Positions 11,258-18,600 of a stretch of 40,196 nucleotides of DNA are shown here, piece by piece. Source of the DNA: a virus. The translations under genes were made by a program, and so were the position numbers. The first letter of the stretch is position 1. Every line of letters starts with the position of its first letter. Where the stretch lies: positions 1-40,196 of the IMG/VR virus record IMGVR_UViG_3300023180_000137. One strand, given 5' to 3'. The notes beneath the pieces are model-generated. The model did no database searches and was not told the origin of the DNA. It saw nothing but the letters and a program-made list of their open reading frames with translations.

Positions 11258-11701
11258 TTACTTTATACCTAGGTTATCTTCTGTTATTATTTTAAATTCC
11301 AACAATCTATCCTTACACCATTCATCTGCTGCTTTCCATTTTGCTTGATTTATGGCATAAGTTTTGCATTCATGTATAAAAGATTTTGTGACTCTTGATT
11401 TTTTTACTGGTGCAATAGTTTGCCTTTTGGGTTTTATTTCGACAACATAGGTTTTTATTGAACCTTTACTCTCTTTAACTTTTATAATAAAATCTGGAAA
11501 ATATCTATGGACTTTGTTGTCTATTGGAGAGACGTAAGGAATAAAGAATTCTTCACTTGCCCATTCTATTATATTTTCATTTAAGTCACAGTAAGAACAA
11601 AATTTTCTCTCCCAACTACTCCTACAAATAATATTGTTGGGATTTCCCTTATATTTTTTGGGATATGAAGGTTTATACTTACTTTTAATACTTTCGTTCA
11701 T
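11258..11701 (-). CDS. gp4: Head completion protein gp4 (nuclease-like fold)
   Basis: A 147-residue protein (T4 gp4, also called gp50/65, has about 150). It has YPKKYKGNPNNIICRSSWE, then SEEFFIPYVSP, HRYFPDF (P69-D70-F) and YVVEIKPKRQ (E88-I-K90), the residues of a TnsA-like PD-(D/E)XK nuclease fold. In T4, gp4 completes the filled head, possibly trimming or handling the DNA end before tail joining. It is the first gene of the minus-strand operon. Confidence in the identity is high; whether it cuts DNA is not shown. Confidence 0.88.
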   Translation of the reverse strand: MNESIKSKYKPSYPKKYKGNPNNIICRSSWERKFCSYCDLNENIIEWASEEFFIPYVSPIDNKVHRYFPDFIIKVKESKGSIKTYVVEIKPKRQTIAPVKKSRVTKSFIHECKTYAINQAKWKAADEWCKDRLLEFKIITEDNLGIK

Positions 11702-11735
11702 TAAGTTGTCTACATATAATATAACGTATACACTT

Positions 11736-11743
11736 GTATTTAG
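11736..11743 (-). promoter_or_regulatory. Candidate late promoter box CTAAATAC for the minus-strand operon
   Basis: On the minus strand, CTAAATAC lies 34 nt upstream of the gp4 ATG, in the 42-nt gap between divergent gp4 and gp54. It resembles the T4 late box and the box at 35761. On the plus strand, TTGTCT (11706-11711), 17 nt and TACACT (11729-11734) form a weak candidate for gp54. Confidence 0.4.
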
Positions 11744-12583
11744 ATGTCAAATATACCAGTAAATCCTGGTGTTAATATGAGCACTCTTAAGAGCAGGATA
11801 TTGAATCCAGCTCTTACATCTTTTTATAGTGTTGATATTGTACCTCCATCAAATTTATTAAGTCAGATAAATTCTGAATTGGGGTTAGACTATGATAAAG
11901 AACTATTTGAATTGACTTGTATAGAAGCTTCTTTACCAGGATCTCAACTAGCGACAATAGATATTGATAATGATTATATGGGAGTTTCCCAAAAAAACAT
12001 TTATAGAAGAATGTATGATAATTCTATAGATCTTACTTTTTTAGTTACTAAAGATAGTAACTACCAACAAATTAGATTTTTTGAAATGTGGATGAAGTAT
12101 GCTTCTGGTGAAGATATTATTGGTAGAATGGATGGTCCAGATTTTTATACTAGGATAAGATATCCTACAGACTATAAATCTGAGATTAGAATTGCAAAAT
12201 ATGAAAGAGATTTGGGATCAAAAGTAACTTCGGGATCTAAAGAGTTTTTAGGATATTATTTTACAGAAGCATTTCCATTATCAATATCATCTATGCCAAT
12301 TAGTTATGATGCATCTGATACCTTAAAAGCTACTGTTAGTATTAGTTATAGTAGATATTATATTAAAAGAGAAGTTTATAGTACTGAGTTATCTCAACCA
12401 CAAACTGATAGACCTTCAACTCCAGGAGTAGATGGAGAAGAACAGAGCAATTCTTGGAGATATAGTCAGCAACAACTTGAAGATGCTAGAAAACAAGCAA
12501 GAGAGAACTCTTTAAGACAATCTGCTCAAAATAGGGATGCTGCTAGCGCACCTAGGGGTTCAATTAGACCAAGTGGTAGATAA
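11744..12583 (+). CDS. gp54: Probable baseplate tail tube initiator gp54
   Basis: A 279-residue protein. It reads like a tail-tube fold protein: NPALTSFYSVDIVPPSNL at 20-38, LTCIEASLPGSQL, a central IDLTFLVTKDSNYQQIRFFEMWMKY segment, and an end strand ATVSISYSRYY, followed by a polar Gln/Arg-rich tail of about 60 residues. This is the pattern of gp54/gp19-type proteins. Its place opposite the gp48 operon and before gp26, with no sheath gene nearby, favours gp54 (tube initiator, T4 320 residues) over the main tube protein gp19. It is followed by a hairpin terminator. Confidence 0.65.
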   Translation: MSNIPVNPGVNMSTLKSRILNPALTSFYSVDIVPPSNLLSQINSELGLDYDKELFELTCIEASLPGSQLATIDIDNDYMGVSQKNIYRRMYDNSIDLTFLVTKDSNYQQIRFFEMWMKYASGEDIIGRMDGPDFYTRIRYPTDYKSEIRIAKYERDLGSKVTSGSKEFLGYYFTEAFPLSISSMPISYDASDTLKATVSISYSRYYIKREVYSTELSQPQTDRPSTPGVDGEEQSNSWRYSQQQLEDARKQARENSLRQSAQNRDAASAPRGSIRPSGR

Positions 12584-12587
12584 TTTA

Positions 12588-12627
12588 AAAAATCAGTTAT
12601 AAATAAATATAACCTGATTTTTATTTT
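12588..12627 (+). terminator. Hairpin terminator after gp54, with late promoter box in it
   Basis: AAATCA-GTTATA (12590-12601) pairs with TATAAC-C-TGATTT (12608-12620) with one bulged C and a 6-nt loop; A residues precede it and T residues follow, so it is a weak AT-rich terminator that may work in both directions. TATAAATA (12598-12605) spans the left arm and loop. Confidence 0.6.
12598..12605 (+). promoter_or_regulatory. T4-type late promoter box TATAAATA for gp26 operon
   Basis: A perfect TATAAATA, overlapped by AATAAATA three to four bases later, 30 nt before the gp26 ATG. It would drive the tail hub and tape-measure operon. Confidence 0.65.
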
Positions 12628-12634
12628 GAAAATT

Positions 12635-13354
12635 ATGCCATTGCCTACAATATCTACTCCAACATATGAGCTTGAAATTCCTTCTACTGGAGATTTGATT
12701 GAATACAGACCTTTTTTGGTAAAAGAGGAAAAACTCTTAGTAATTGCATTGGAAAGTGAAGATACCAAACAAATCACTTCTGCAATTAAAAATGTTATAA
12801 GAAATTGTGTTCTTACTAAAAACGTAAAGGTTGAAAAACTTCCAACTTTTGATATTGAATATTTATTTTTGAATATTAGAGGTAAGTCAGTTGGTGAAGA
12901 GTTGGATGTAAATATTATATGTCCAGATGATAATGAAACTGTAGTACCAGTTAAAATCAATATTGACGATATTTCAGTGAAAAAATTGGATGAACACACA
13001 AATCAAATTAAAATAGATGATACCATTGCAATGGAGATGAAGTATCCTTCACTGGATCAATTCATTAAAAATAATTTTGATTTTAATGCAAAAAATAGTA
13101 TCGAGCAATCTTTTGATTTGATTGCTTCGTGTATAGATCAAATTTACACAGAAGAAGAAAGTTGGGCTGCATCAGATACAACTAAAAAAGAACTTATTTC
13201 TTTTTTGGAACAAATGAATTCTGAACAGTTTAAAAAAATTGAGTTATTTTTTGAGACAATGCCAAAACTAACTCACGAGATTGAAATTACTAATCCAAAT
13301 ACAAGCGTTAAAAGCAAAGTAGTATTGGAGGGTCTATCTGATTTTTTCGCATAG
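12635..13354 (+). CDS. gp26: gp26-like baseplate hub/tail chaperone protein
   Basis: A 239-residue protein (T4 gp26 208) from ATG 12635; a TTG three codons upstream is possible. It has the gp26 family pattern: LPTISTPTYELEIPSTGDLIEYRPFLVKEEK-type start (read as separate blocks), ESEDTKQI, VIRNCV, LPTFDIEYLFLNIRGKSVG, then IDDTIAMEMKYPS and a helical end with SFLEQMNSEQF. In T4 it is needed for hub assembly. Its last codons include the slippery heptamer T-TTT-TTC, and the -1 frame runs on into the 13366-13533 gene. This makes it a likely tape-measure chaperone of the lambda gpG/gpGT type. Confidence 0.82.
   Translation: MPLPTISTPTYELEIPSTGDLIEYRPFLVKEEKLLVIALESEDTKQITSAIKNVIRNCVLTKNVKVEKLPTFDIEYLFLNIRGKSVGEELDVNIICPDDNETVVPVKINIDDISVKKLDEHTNQIKIDDTIAMEMKYPSLDQFIKNNFDFNAKNSIEQSFDLIASCIDQIYTEEESWAASDTTKKELISFLEQMNSEQFKKIELFFETMPKLTHEIEITNPNTSVKSKVVLEGLSDFFA
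13342..13348 (+). promoter_or_regulatory. Probable -1 ribosomal frameshift site (T TTT TTC)
   Basis: The heptamer T-TTT-TTC fits X-XXY-YYZ in the gp26 frame (GAT TTT TTC GCA TAG), one sense codon before the stop. A -1 slip continues through CGC ATA GCT CTC GCT CAC into ATG 13366 without a stop and would give a 299-residue fusion (238 + 61). Confidence 0.7.
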
Positions 13355-13365
13355 CTCTCGCTCAC

Positions 13366-13533
13366 ATGGATTTGGAGAATTATTATAAATTAAATTTTGC
13401 TCTCTTACAATACCATAAATACTCATTAACTGAAATTGAAAATCTGATTCCATGGGAGAGAGATGTTTATGTTGCTCTATTAGCGGCTCATCTTGAAGAA
13501 GAAAAATTAAAGCAGCAGCAGAATGGATCTTAA
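13366..13533 (+). CDS. -1 frame extension of gp26 (tail chaperone-like)
   Basis: The stand-alone frame from ATG 13366 is 55 residues, but no ribosome binding site precedes it, and the frame is open back to the TGA at 13339-13341, across the slippery site. It is therefore more likely made as a gp26 fusion. It has LQYHKYSLTEIENLIPWERDVY (read as HKYSLTEIENL and PWERDVYVALL) and a C-terminal EEEK/Gln helix. A short helical piece with W-E-x-x-x-Y-x-x-LL and acidic residues is usual in the second part of tail assembly chaperones. It overlaps the tape-measure-like gene by 11 nt. Confidence 0.65.
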   Translation: MDLENYYKLNFALLQYHKYSLTEIENLIPWERDVYVALLAAHLEEEKLKQQQNGS

Positions 13534-16156
13534 ACCAGACTATATTGAAGAGTATATACCATACGCCACCATTAGTAGGCGTATGGGAATGTGGAGAGCT
13601 ATAATATTATCTAAACTTGAATATTCAAAATACTTACTTGAAAATACATTCAATATAGATGCTGATAGAGTAGTTGATATATTCATGTCTTCTTGGGATA
13701 AGTCTGAAAAAGATTATCCTTCTCCAAAATTTTCAAGACCATCTTCTCCAGAAGAGTATGAGTCATATAATAAGTACATAATTTATCTTTGGGAATATTA
13801 TGTAAATGATAATGATAAAATAGAACTGCCAGAAGAACCAACTGAATCTACAGAAAAGATAGATTCTTCTACAATCGTTCCTGTAAATAAATCTCCAGAT
13901 GAAGGAGAAGACAGGATGTATGATGGTGTTCGTGAGGAAGATTTAGTTAATGAGGAAATTGATGAAAGAATTTTGAGAATTCTTGGACTAGAAGATACCT
14001 TTGATATTGACTATGCAACTTACAGAACTCTTTTAAAGGAGTATCTGGTTAGAGTTAATATGGGGACTGATTCTCTTCCTAGAGAAGAGCAGATGTTATT
14101 GAGGGATGAATATGTTAGAGTTAAAGGACTTGTTGGTAGATTTAAAATCAATAAAAAATATAGGGATCAATTTGGAAGTCCTATAACACTTGCATCAAGT
14201 GCAATTATAAATCCAGAATCTGTAAAAACTCCAGATTTAGAGCAGCAAAATCAAAACCAAACTGGTTTTTCTAAATTTGCAGAAGATATTGCAGCAATCA
14301 GAGATTCTGTTGCTAACATACTTGAATTGATGCAAAAACAGAGTGATTTATTTAAAAAACAGATAGATAATGTTCGCAAATCTTCAGAGAGGGGTAAAAG
14401 GCAGAAAAATGAATCTAGATTAGAGTCTATTGGTAAGGGAGCATTAAAATTAGCTAATAAGGTTCTTGGACCAGTAAAAAATATATTTGAGAAATTGCTG
14501 AAGTTTATAACTACAGTAATTCTTGGAAGAATTGTATTAAAATTATTCAGATGGATGAGTGACCCTAAAAATAAGGGAAAAGTTGATGCTATTCTTAGAT
14601 TTTTAAAAGATTGGGGACCTGCTTTAATTGCAGGATATTTGTTATTTGGAACTACAATAGGAAAACTTGTAAGAACTGTTATTGGAACTTTGGTTAAACT
14701 AACCTTCACAATATTGCGGAAGGGAATACCTGCTGCTATGAATTTGATTAAGAAGAATCCAAAAGCAGCAGCAGCGGTTGGATTATTTACAGCAGGAGCA
14801 ACTATACCAATGTTGTTCCCAGGTACTGTTGATTCCGAAGAGAGAAAAACAGAATCTGCTCCTGGCACTAAAGAAGAAAAAATAGAAGCATTAAAAAAAC
14901 AGAAAGAAAATCTGAATCCAATGCAAAAAATGCAAGGAGTTGGATCAGAAATTGATGAGCAGATTTATAGATTGGAGACGGGAGAGACTAAAAAATATTC
15001 TGGTGGTGGAGAGATACCAAAATCACCACAAGAAACAATTTCGAAATTCCCTGGCGGGAAAGTTACTAATCAAACTGGTGTAAGGATAAAGGGTGCAGGA
15101 AAAGATACCCAACTTACTGCACTGGAACCAGGAGAGATTGTAATATCAAATTCTGCTGTTAATAAGTATGGTTCTGATTTCTTCTTATCTTTAAATAAAT
15201 CTGGTGGCGGAACAAATGCTCCTAAAATCGCAAGTGGAATACAACTAGCTTCTGGTGGAGGAATGATAGGTCCTTCTACAAATAATAGAAGTATAATTGA
15301 AAATGTAAATAATAATATTTCCAATATTAGTAAAATTAGACCAACTCAAATGGGATTTGATTCACAAAATAATAATATTTCAAAATATTTTGTGAATAAT
15401 ATTCAAAACATATCTTCAAATAATCCTTCATATTTGTCTGATCTAAATTTAACTACTAATAAAAAAGTTGATAATTTTAATGCAGATGTAAATAATACTT
15501 TTGAATCGGATCAAGTATCAAATGTAAAAAATATTAGGAATAGTAATTTTATTGGTGGGGATATCTTTAATAATTTATCTACCAATATCAATAATAGAGA
15601 AGTGAATAATAGGATAGATACTAATAAATTTGTAAGTTCGGATTATAAAAGTGCTTTAAATAAATCAACATCAGTAATCAATAATATCAATAATCAAGAT
15701 ACTACGACATTATCTGGTAAAGAATCTCTTGGAGGGATTGAGAAATCTTTATCTGCAGATAAGTACATACAACCATTTACAAAAATGGTTTCTGTTGACA
15801 ATAGCAAACAAGAACAAAATCAAAATATAGTGCAAAGTACAGAATCAAATAGAATTGATTCTGGTAAAGTATCACTTCAAAATAAAAATCAATTTACTTC
15901 TTCTACCATAAATCAAACTGCTAATAAAGTTTTACCAGCAACTATCAGTAAAGAAAAGAGTGTGGCAACTCAAACCATTCCTCCCCCACCAAAACCCAAA
16001 GTAAATGTGGTACATATTGCAAATGAAGAAATTCAAAAATTAAGATCACAAAAGAGTGTTGGTAAGAGAGATCTTGATACAAGTTTCCCTGCAGTATATC
16101 CAAGTAATACTAGATCCATGCTTATACAAACCTATGGAATTTATGGTGTAAGGTAA
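13523..16156 (+). CDS. Tape-measure-like tail protein 1
   Basis: An 877-residue protein. Residues 1-230 are soluble and acidic. Residues 250-300 form a charged helix (KFAEDIAAIRDSVANILELMQ). Hydrophobic segments follow at about 325-345, 365-398 and 413-433. Residues 534-550 read LEPGEIVISNSAVNKYG, the TPGExVxxxxAVxxYG-type motif frequent in tail tape measure proteins. Residues 585-720 are very Asn-rich and the end is YPSNTRSMLIQTYGIYGVR. Position right after the chaperone-like pair supports a tape-measure role; an internal virion protein of the hub is the alternative. The next gene shares its last base and is a partial paralogue. Confidence 0.6.
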   Translation: MDLKPDYIEEYIPYATISRRMGMWRAIILSKLEYSKYLLENTFNIDADRVVDIFMSSWDKSEKDYPSPKFSRPSSPEEYESYNKYIIYLWEYYVNDNDKIELPEEPTESTEKIDSSTIVPVNKSPDEGEDRMYDGVREEDLVNEEIDERILRILGLEDTFDIDYATYRTLLKEYLVRVNMGTDSLPREEQMLLRDEYVRVKGLVGRFKINKKYRDQFGSPITLASSAIINPESVKTPDLEQQNQNQTGFSKFAEDIAAIRDSVANILELMQKQSDLFKKQIDNVRKSSERGKRQKNESRLESIGKGALKLANKVLGPVKNIFEKLLKFITTVILGRIVLKLFRWMSDPKNKGKVDAILRFLKDWGPALIAGYLLFGTTIGKLVRTVIGTLVKLTFTILRKGIPAAMNLIKKNPKAAAAVGLFTAGATIPMLFPGTVDSEERKTESAPGTKEEKIEALKKQKENLNPMQKMQGVGSEIDEQIYRLETGETKKYSGGGEIPKSPQETISKFPGGKVTNQTGVRIKGAGKDTQLTALEPGEIVISNSAVNKYGSDFFLSLNKSGGGTNAPKIASGIQLASGGGMIGPSTNNRSIIENVNNNISNISKIRPTQMGFDSQNNNISKYFVNNIQNISSNNPSYLSDLNLTTNKKVDNFNADVNNTFESDQVSNVKNIRNSNFIGGDIFNNLSTNINNREVNNRIDTNKFVSSDYKSALNKSTSVINNINNQDTTTLSGKESLGGIEKSLSADKYIQPFTKMVSVDNSKQEQNQNIVQSTESNRIDSGKVSLQNKNQFTSSTINQTANKVLPATISKEKSVATQTIPPPPKPKVNVVHIANEEIQKLRSQKSVGKRDLDTSFPAVYPSNTRSMLIQTYGIYGVR

Positions 16157-18600
16157 TGGCAGTTATAGATCCCAAAAAATTATTAAATCCATCTAAAGAT
16201 CCTTCTGCTTCTAGTGGATCTAATACTTTTTATTCTTCTGGTTTTTTTAAAGTTGCTGAAGATATATCCAACATAAAGGAAAATGTAGTAAAAATTGAAG
16301 ATGTACTTAAAAAAAGTATAAAAATAAATGTAAGACAATTGGAGTTGTCTAGAAGAGATCTTGAAAGAACGCGAAGGAATACTAGAGAAGACAAAAAGGA
16401 AAGTAGAAAAAAAGTTAATAAATTTGATAAATTTAGAAAGTTTATTCCTGGTTTGAGTTTAATTGATAGAGCAAAACAATTTTTGGGTTCTATATTAGCT
16501 GGATTTTTGGTTCTTAGGTTGGTAAAATTATTACCAAAATTACTTGGAATAATTAAGTTTTTGAAACCAGTAGGTCAATTTATATTTGATTTTGCTGCTG
16601 GAATTCTTGATAAAGTAGCAACAGGAATAGAATTTGCTTATAATACTATTGATACAATATCAAACACAGTTAAAAATGTTTTTGGTGAAGATGCTCAGAA
16701 AAAATTAAATAACTTTTTAAGTGCTTTTACAAAATTTGCTAACATTGCTATAATTGCAATGATGGTCTCTTCTGGGGGAAGTAATCCTCTCAATAGAAGA
16801 TTTAACGGACCAGAAAGGAAGGGTTTTGATAGAAGTGGTAGGAGAGTAAACACTAGAACTCAGCAAAGATATAGGCAAAGATATGGTGATAGGGCATTTA
16901 GGGAAAGATTTGGTGGAAGGAATTTAGATAGATTAAACAGACCGTCCAGAACACCAACACCAACTGGAGGAGCACCAACACCAACTGGAGGAGCACCTGG
17001 AAGAGTACCTCAGAGCGGTGTTCAAAAAGCTGTTCAAAAAGGAGTTACTAAAGTTGCTGGAAAGACTGCTGGTAAAATCGCTGGCAAGATTCCAATTGTT
17101 GGTCCACTTATTGATTTTGGTATAAGAACTCTTATATTTAAGGAACCACTTGGTAAAGCAGCTGCAGGTGCAGTTGGAGCTGCTGCTGGACAAGCACTTG
17201 GTGCCTGGATAGGAGGTACTATAGGTGGTGTTGCTGGTAGTGTTGTTCCTTTTATTGGCAATATAATTGCTGGTTCTGCTGGAGTAGCTATTGGTTCATT
17301 GCTTGGTGGATTGATTGGTGATCAGATAGGCGTAAGTCTTTATAATGTCCTTGTTGGATCTGATTCTAAAGAAGTTCAATCAAAGTCTGGTGGAGGAAGT
17401 ACAAATAAAAAAGTCAAAGATAATAAGACTAAGACTAAGAAAACAATAAAAGATTTTAAACCAGATGATACTATTCCAGGAAAGAGTATTGGTAGAAACA
17501 ATTTAAATGAACTTTATGATGACAATTATTCTTTAATAACTGGAATATCTAAAGCATCAAAAAGGTTAAAGAAAAAAGACAATACCTTCCTATCCAAAAT
17601 TGCGTCTATTGGTTTAGATTTGTCTCTGGGACAAAAACCATCTGATAGATCAATCTCTGATTTATCGGAATCTTTTGCATCAATTATAGATTTTTATAGA
17701 GATCCTCTCAATACTACACAAAAACTTTCATCTGGTGGATCTGTAGAGAGTATTGAAACGGAAAGAAAGAAGATAATATTTAAATCATTAAAGAGTAAGT
17801 TTAATGATGAAATAAACAATGCTTTTATGGATGTAAAAGTTTTTGGAAAAAAAGAATATGGAATCTCTGATGCATTTACTTCATTTTTTGAAAGATTGAC
17901 GGGGGTGAGATTTGATAGGGCAACTAGAGGAACTAGTGGAAGAAGAAGACCAGGATCGACACTTCCTTCTGCTGCACCACTGTCTGGAAGTGATAAATTT
18001 GCTAGAATATCTGGAACTAGTGGAACTGTAGCATATGGTGGAAGAGAAAATGCTCCATTGACAGTTTCATATAGTCCTTTTGGAAAGGGAGCCAATGCAA
18101 GTTTAATATCTGGAAAGGGTTATAGAAGAAGCACTAGGAGCAATCATAGAGGATATGATATTGCTGCACCTTCAGGAACACCTTTATATGCTTATTTACC
18201 AGGAAAAGTTACTAGGGCTGCATACGATCGTTCATATGGTTATTATATTGAGTGGAAAGATTCTGTGTATGGACAGACTCATTTTTATGGACACATGGTT
18301 GGACCATCCCCATTAAAAGTTGGGCAGGAATTTAAACAGGGAGATTCTCTTGGTAGAGTAGGTAGTACAGGAAAAAGTGAAGGTCCTCACGTCCATTGGG
18401 AGATTGGACCACAAGGATCTGAAATTGATCCTGGAAATTGGGTAAATACTCACCCACTTAAAAAAGATAACAAAGCAAATATAGAAACAGCAGATAAAAA
18501 ATCAACAGCAGATAAAGTTAGTTCCAATGCATCCTATGAACAACCATCAACAACTACTATAGCGGTTGTTGAAAAAACAAAGTATGTCACTATTGGATAA
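16156..18600 (+). CDS. Tape-measure-like tail protein 2 with C-terminal M23 peptidase
   Basis: An 814-residue protein. Residues 28-90 form a charged helix (FFKVAEDISNIKENVVKIEDVL) like that of the previous gene. Hydrophobic segments lie at 105-150 and 190-205, a basic linker with a duplicated TPTPTGGA is at 266-279, and a long Gly/Ala-rich hydrophobic stretch (305-395) looks like glycine-zipper helices. The C-terminus (660-760) is an M23 (lysostaphin-type) endopeptidase with H664-RGY-D668, HFYGH (709-713) and H745-V-H747, all metal and catalytic residues present. It probably travels in the tail tube or hub and cuts peptidoglycan cross-links on injection. gp5 here lacks a lysozyme, so this may be the tail's lytic enzyme. 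Confidence 0.75.
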   Translation: MAVIDPKKLLNPSKDPSASSGSNTFYSSGFFKVAEDISNIKENVVKIEDVLKKSIKINVRQLELSRRDLERTRRNTREDKKESRKKVNKFDKFRKFIPGLSLIDRAKQFLGSILAGFLVLRLVKLLPKLLGIIKFLKPVGQFIFDFAAGILDKVATGIEFAYNTIDTISNTVKNVFGEDAQKKLNNFLSAFTKFANIAIIAMMVSSGGSNPLNRRFNGPERKGFDRSGRRVNTRTQQRYRQRYGDRAFRERFGGRNLDRLNRPSRTPTPTGGAPTPTGGAPGRVPQSGVQKAVQKGVTKVAGKTAGKIAGKIPIVGPLIDFGIRTLIFKEPLGKAAAGAVGAAAGQALGAWIGGTIGGVAGSVVPFIGNIIAGSAGVAIGSLLGGLIGDQIGVSLYNVLVGSDSKEVQSKSGGGSTNKKVKDNKTKTKKTIKDFKPDDTIPGKSIGRNNLNELYDDNYSLITGISKASKRLKKKDNTFLSKIASIGLDLSLGQKPSDRSISDLSESFASIIDFYRDPLNTTQKLSSGGSVESIETERKKIIFKSLKSKFNDEINNAFMDVKVFGKKEYGISDAFTSFFERLTGVRFDRATRGTSGRRRPGSTLPSAAPLSGSDKFARISGTSGTVAYGGRENAPLTVSYSPFGKGANASLISGKGYRRSTRSNHRGYDIAAPSGTPLYAYLPGKVTRAAYDRSYGYYIEWKDSVYGQTHFYGHMVGPSPLKVGQEFKQGDSLGRVGSTGKSEGPHVHWEIGPQGSEIDPGNWVNTHPLKKDNKANIETADKKSTADKVSSNASYEQPSTTTIAVVEKTKYVTIG

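Follow-up and report, generated by a model that had tools for sequence, protein, structure and literature searches.

A conserved slippery site at the end of gp26 points to a recoded tail assembly chaperone gene in T4-like cyanophages

Introduction

Why is the gp51 gene of T4-like cyanophages so short? A passage of a 2010 study presents as a puzzle that cyanophage gp51 has about 20% of the length of T4 gp51, the first 200 residues being absent, and that Aeh1 is without gp51 (PMC3037559). The question bears on a DNA of 40,196 nucleotides from a phage of marine cyanobacteria (IMG/VR record IMGVR_UViG_3300023180_000137), hereafter the window, in which the small frame usually annotated as gp51 lies behind gp26. 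A sequence-only reading of this DNA had proposed that a programmed -1 frameshift at the end of gp26 joins the two frames into a tail chaperone pair of the gpG/gpGT type. On the basis of sequence comparison and a predicted fold, we find it very probable that gp26 and the -1 frame that follows it constitute one recoded tail assembly chaperone gene of this G/GT type.

In phages lambda (gpG/gpGT) and HK97, a -1 slip late in the short frame, 5' of the tape measure gene, yields two chaperone forms, one short and one long, as Levin (1993) and Xu (2004) reportedly described; the layout proposed for gp26 is the same. The heptamer of lambda is G GGA AAG, whereas that of gp26 is T TTT TTC, and gp26 is the larger protein, with about 150 residues after its TAC-like part. 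For T4-like phages, Vladimirov, Gautam and Davidson reportedly described in 2022 frameshifting in several groups, T4 instead having 26 and 51 as two distinct genes, a system that concerns the same gene family as gp26 of the window. Poly-T slippery signals in the TAC-N genes of T4-like phages are presented as known in the relevant lines of a 2025 paper citing Vladimirov et al. 2022 (PMC12846349). The core idea of a recoded chaperone is already known for T4-like phages, and what the present work probably adds is the stimulators and the scale of the comparison. In the open-licence literature searched, no description was found of a Shine-Dalgarno-like (SD-like) element upstream of the slip site or of a covarying hairpin downstream, and among the matches listed for cyanophages and frameshifting, all of them open-licence papers, no title dealt with the gp26 slip site.

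Results and Discussion

Loci compared and gene map

The comparison set consisted of 219 loci, namely environmental contigs (80 + 80 + 39), 19 annotated phage records and the window. Removal of three loci that end before the junction (L075, L082 and L084) and of 13 junction duplicates left 203 non-redundant junctions. The 162 non-redundant loci closest to the window or to P-SSM4 form the cyanophage-like set; counts given for 161 anchored loci omit L188, the single member of this set without the heptamer. By megablast, no near relative of window positions 11700-16200 was detected among 50,697 phage records.

All features of the window described below lie on the plus strand. A tail tube-like gene (11744..12583; Pfam PF23849 Phage_TTP_2, E 1.3e-15; phrog_45 tail tube, E 3.9e-29) is found directly 5' of gp26 (12635..13354), whose unshifted product has 239 residues if translation starts at ATG 12635. 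This product belongs to family PF12322 (E 5.5e-73, 245.7 bits against a curated cut-off of 24.5) and matches phrog_150 'baseplate hub' in profile searches (E 3.9e-76). Together with the predicted fold, these matches suggest that it is the short, G-like (TAC-N) form of a chaperone.

The slippery site

In the window, gp26 ends in GAG GGT CTA TCT GAT TTT TTC GCA TAG, the last five codons occupying 13340-13354. The heptamer T TTT TTC (13342..13348) stands in the phase required for tandem -1 slippage, and the zero-frame stop TAG (13352..13354) follows one codon past it. The -1 frame is open from the slip point through 13530 and closes with a stop at 13531-13533, so that a slip would give a product of 238 + 61 = 299 residues. 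On all these points the sequence-only reading proved accurate, coordinates included, and the alignment of relatives that it had suggested as a check revealed conservation of both the heptamer and the downstream frame.

An in-phase T TTT TTY no more than six codons from the stop was present at 173 of the 203 non-redundant junctions and in 161 of the 162 cyanophage-like loci, in isolates and environmental contigs alike. The anchored loci invariably have TTT as the P-site codon (161/161) and T as the preceding base (161/161), and the A-site codon is TTC in 159 of them. The remainder of these genes favors TTT for Phe, with TTC at 469 out of 1812 Phe codons, and T TTT TTC occurs at a single one of their 164 other Phe-Phe pairs. 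The heptamer is real and far beyond chance. KVP40, Aeh1, LPCS28, Cr30, an Ochrobactrum phage and S-CREM2 also possess the heptamer and a T domain in the -1 frame.

The shifted frame

The -1 frame that would be read after the slip (13345..13533) encodes a T-like (TAC-C) domain. The frame matches phrog_634 (E 2.4e-28), the family named 'baseplate hub assembly catalyst'; a weak match (E 3.6e-5) links it to positions 232-280 of phrog_150, a profile which reaches beyond the end of gp26. Counted from the slip, it spans 61 codons (13348 to 13530), and it reaches 56-67 codons beyond the zero-frame stop in the 157 loci where the end of the frame is present. In public records the T domain is entered as a 'catalyst' or hypothetical gene standing alone, or is missing. 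Eight of the 18 non-T4 records carry no annotated gene in the T frame and none has a joined CDS; S-CAM1 and S-CAM4 have no gene annotated in the small frame, and in Syn1 the annotated start of the small gene lies 50 bases past the gp26 stop.

The first alternative to frameshifting is a separate gene: the small frame, in the window a 55-aa ORF with an ATG (13366..13533), would be a stand-alone gp51 gene translated from its own start, perhaps by coupling to termination, and no frameshift would be needed. Several records (e.g., S-SM2, P-SSM4, S-PM2) do annotate it as a separate CDS, an ATG precedes the core in 133 of 158 loci, and in KVP40, Cr30 and K452 an ATG overlaps the gp26 stop, so coupled translation could add a separate T domain there. 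Nevertheless, the stretch from the slip site to the conserved N-F of the T domain is devoid of ATG in 25 of the 158 loci, and of ATG, GTG and TTG alike in 19. A strong SD was found before the first small-frame ATG in none of the 133 loci, although this is a weak test since genuine starts are weak as well: mean SD strength was -2.5 kcal/mol at gp26 starts (152 loci) and -0.6 kcal/mol at the starts of the next gene (140 loci). The sequence-only reading had stressed that the small frame has no ribosome binding site of its own and had regarded homologues that have a good one but no slippery sequence as contrary evidence. The absence is genuine and none of the 133 loci was such a homologue, yet we dropped the missing site as evidence for frameshifting, because it says little when gp26 and the gene after it mostly have weak starts too. 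More importantly, a stand-alone gene leaves the T TTT TTY of 161 of 162 loci, the SD-like element and the hairpin described below unexplained, and the T4 homologue is one fused ORF. We thus consider a stand-alone gp51 very unlikely, and the 55-aa ORF is probably no separate gene.

An SD-like element upstream of the heptamer

The layout of the slip region resembles the -1 signal of Escherichia coli dnaX, in which the heptamer is preceded at about 10 nt by an internal SD and closely followed by a hairpin. The two systems differ in that dnaX uses A AAA AAG and its shifted product is the shorter one, whereas gp26 has T TTT TTC and its shifted form would be the longer; moreover, the register of the gp26 hairpin varies between lineages and the hairpin is weak in the window. 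The upstream part of such a signal is present in the window as GGAGG (13327..13331), an SD-like element within gp26 that ends 10 nt before the heptamer and is a putative stimulator. With 34 nt separating it from ATG 13366, it is too far from this codon to serve as its SD.

When the 161 anchored loci were scanned from gp26 into the T frame for pairing with the anti-SD of 16S RNA, the mean energy peaked at -7.14 kcal/mol, at position -19 relative to the A-site codon; the best site elsewhere reached -5.56 kcal/mol. The regional mean was -7.18 as observed against -5.42 +/- 0.12 in synonymous versions. Five-base SD motifs (a set of six, two of them imperfect complements) occurred in 153 of 161 loci against 64% expected, whereas four-base motifs showed no excess (158/161 against 98.7% expected) because Glu-Gly nearly always supplies one. 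Codon usage at the site is in keeping with this: Glu is encoded by GAG in 130 of 157 cases compared with 1185 of 3757 elsewhere in the genes, and GGG follows GAA in 19 of 27 cases but GAG in 20 of 130. The loci being related, the z of -14 obtained for the SD-like element is no probability, and both the SD and the folding statistics overstate independence.

A hairpin downstream of the heptamer

Folding was compared with that of synonymous versions in 53 of 157 loci. Counted from the first base of the A-site codon, the 39-nt segments that begin 2 and 11 nt further on had mean z values of -2.17 and -2.25, while the 20 other 39-nt segments had means between -0.77 and +0.38. Dinucleotide shuffles agree, with a mean z of about -2 over the first 40-60 nt (39-41 of 161 loci). 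The hairpin is supported in relatives but weak in the window (z -0.95 and -1.43).

Covariation was counted in 64 of the 65 anchored loci of L148-L216, taken regardless of structure (59 distinct rows; the remaining locus was too short). An earlier alignment of hairpin-bearing loci, whose rows had been chosen mostly by the hairpin, was not relied on. The 12-pair stem, whose site corresponds to 13353..13385 of the window, had 81.5% of its cells paired in these 64 loci, against 75.7% after shuffling and 28-43% when the stem was slid. Cells with both sides changed numbered 34, compared with 12.3 +/- 2.3 in shuffles and at most 16 in slid stems. Of these, 27 fall at one pair that varies between U-A, G-C and A-U and joins a mostly silent third base to the second base of a GAG, GCG or GTG codon. 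The number of stem pairs changed on both sides (3) and that of further pair types (9) showed no excess over shuffles. Stem registers, judged by eye, differ between lineages, and RNAalifold returned no structure common to 158 ungapped sequences.

These elements also bear on transcriptional slippage, whereby the polymerase would add or skip a T so that some mRNAs carry both parts in frame. The site is indeed a run of six T, but a run of six is short for such slippage, C occupies the seventh position in 159 of 161 loci even though these genes more often encode Phe by TTT, and an SD-like element and a hairpin suit a ribosomal event better; this explanation appears even less probable than a stand-alone gp51. 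That the stop between the frames merely reflects an assembly error or a recent mutation in a decayed gene is scarcely credible, for although L188 (1/162), two bases shorter at the site than its relatives, has a single continuous frame, stop and heptamer recur together in isolates and environmental contigs (161 of 162 loci) as well as in the distant KVP40, Aeh1 and LPCS28.

Relation to T4 gp26 and gp51

T4 contains two PF12322 proteins, gp26 (208 aa) and gp51 (249 aa), while 12 other records contain one each. T4 gp51 is a single in-frame ORF that fuses both parts, with the phrog_634 match at residues 147-246 (E 1.2e-23), whereas T4 gp26 is the short form alone and a divergent paralogue of gp51. 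None of the ten complete gp26 ends of T4-group loci contains the heptamer; seven have TTC TTT, the reverse order. Where cyanophages would have one recoded gene, the T4 group has two divergent genes of the same family without heptamer, the T domain being carried by gp51. Since gp51 is fused and gp26 is short and lacks the heptamer, the paralogous genes gp26 (short) and gp51 (long) seem, from their sequences, to stand in for the frameshift.

This relationship accounts for the 2010 puzzle. The 200 residues missing from cyanophage gp51 would be gp26, and the apparent lack of gp51 in Aeh1 is explained by the -1 frame T domain, which exists there unannotated. The proposal that gp26 owes its catalytic role in T4 hub assembly to being the chaperone did not hold in that form, the T4 'catalyst' being gp51, the 249-residue in-frame fusion. 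In the sections concerned, a review of T4 lists gp26 and gp51 both as hub assembly chaperones and describes gp51 as required yet absent from the particle (PMC3004832). Work cited in the same part of the review places gp26 in the hub itself (PMC3004832), which counts against the chaperone reading, as a chaperone is not expected there.

Predicted fold of gp26

An AlphaFold2 model of gp26 was obtained with a pLDDT of 88. Foldseek searches of the model against solved structures gave nothing below E 0.001, the match to 2ob9_B having a probability of 0.87 but an E of 0.74. When 999 solved chains were realigned to the model with low-confidence stretches left out, 2ob9 and 3fgx tied for first place (Z 8.0); with the whole model, no chain reached Z 8. 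The match to 2ob9, the HK97 tail assembly chaperone, covers gp26 residues 1-85 (83 residues aligned, rmsd 3.8). The next chains were 3klu (Z 7.3) and 5ir0 (Z 5.1), all of these lying within residues 1-95, and the following one had a Z of 4.2. A Z of 8 is at the edge of what the alignment tool calls meaningful, and this modest match counts because it is a named tail assembly chaperone that heads the list. The gp26 sequence profile gave one weak match among solved chains, a sliding clamp inhibitor, and for a model of the T4 gp51 type no tail chaperone was seen among the best 50 Foldseek matches.

The heptamer, the conserved -1 frame, the HK97-like fold and the in-frame fusion of T4 gp51 together point to a gpG/gpGT-type chaperone pair, in support of what had been proposed for gp26 of the window.

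Proposed mechanism

The analysis shows the conserved signals, the conserved frame, the homology of the two pieces and the predicted fold; the slip itself, how often it occurs, the part played by each stimulator and tape measure binding are inferred. Most ribosomes would stop at TAG 13352 and release the short, G-like form. A fraction would move back by one base at 13342-13348, exchanging TTT-TTC pairing for TTT-TTT, and so produce the 299-residue GT-like form, in which the extra 61 residues contain the domain annotated as gp51. Ending 10 nt upstream, the SD-like element would pair with the 16S RNA of the translating ribosome and probably helps the slip; in many relatives, a hairpin beginning about 4-6 nt downstream probably helps as well. 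If lambda and HK97 are a guide, the tape measure may be coated and delivered, as the tail tube grows, by many copies of the short form and few of the long one; this tape measure is probably the 877-aa product of the next gene. In the T4 group, gp26 as short form and gp51 as long form, products of two paralogous genes, would replace the frameshift.

With less assurance, though we favor it, we propose that the cyanophage gp26 signal is bipartite, comprising the hairpin and, 10 nt upstream of the slip site, an internal SD whose mean strength exceeds that of the SD at the gp26 start. Pairing would have shaped a T-domain codon in one set of relatives, where the second base of GAG, GTG or GCG tracks a mostly silent third base 15 bases earlier. 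The register of the hairpin would have been replaced repeatedly, and the T4 group would have traded the signal for a duplicated gene. The gp26 loci offer a natural test set in which SD and hairpin variants surround one fixed heptamer.

Relatives lacking the heptamer

The 30 junctions without the heptamer comprise 16 of the Magnus type, 11 of the T4 gp51 type, K452, IME-SM1 and L188. The Magnus type (L119-L136 and L092; Magnus belongs to the Ackermannviridae) has the heptamer in none of its 16 non-redundant loci, which read GAR ATT TTC ATY TAA, and the open stretch of its -1 frame begins no earlier than 10-22 nt upstream of the stop. In Magnus, the one representative tested, this frame matches phrog_9633 and, weakly, phrog_634. 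In one subgroup (L134-L136), the stop is closely followed by a Met codon.

In L188, a 236-kb environmental contig, gp26 and the T domain share one frame with no stop between them (near 2700), either as a natural permanent fusion or through an assembly error. In Stenotrophomonas phage IME-SM1 (L089 3720-3724), the T run lacks one base compared with the corresponding place in its relatives and gp26 continues in another frame, perhaps because of a sequencing error. Conversely, in Sinorhizobium phage Phosso (L220 3700-3990) a distant gp26 relative ends in CAT TTT TTC GAA TGA; the -1 frame is open there and matched no PHROG family.

The gene behind the chaperone

On its 3' side the chaperone gene is flanked by a gene for an 877-aa protein (13523..16156), whose start overlaps the end of the T frame. 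The suggestion that this gene is tape-measure-like stands as regards position and composition; no tape-measure profile matched the protein in Pfam and PHROG searches, PF25671 being absent. The profile of T4 gp29, phrog_1283, matched T4 only among 13 records. From its position, the 877-aa product is probably the tape measure protein.

The tail of S-CREM2 measures 418 nm according to part of its description (PMC10665884). The two genes directly behind its chaperone gene encode 1565 and 1456 aa (L114 3931-13002), and the S-PM2 counterparts are smaller, with 1167 and 749 aa. In the window, the 877-aa gene is followed by one for an 814-aa protein with a C-terminal M23 peptidase (16156..18600; PF01551, E 8.2e-22). 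Residues 227-365 of the 877-aa protein are related to residues 2-140 of the 814-aa protein (BLASTP E 2e-9), a pattern suggestive of duplication of a tape-measure-like gene, with the M23 peptidase at the end of the second copy.
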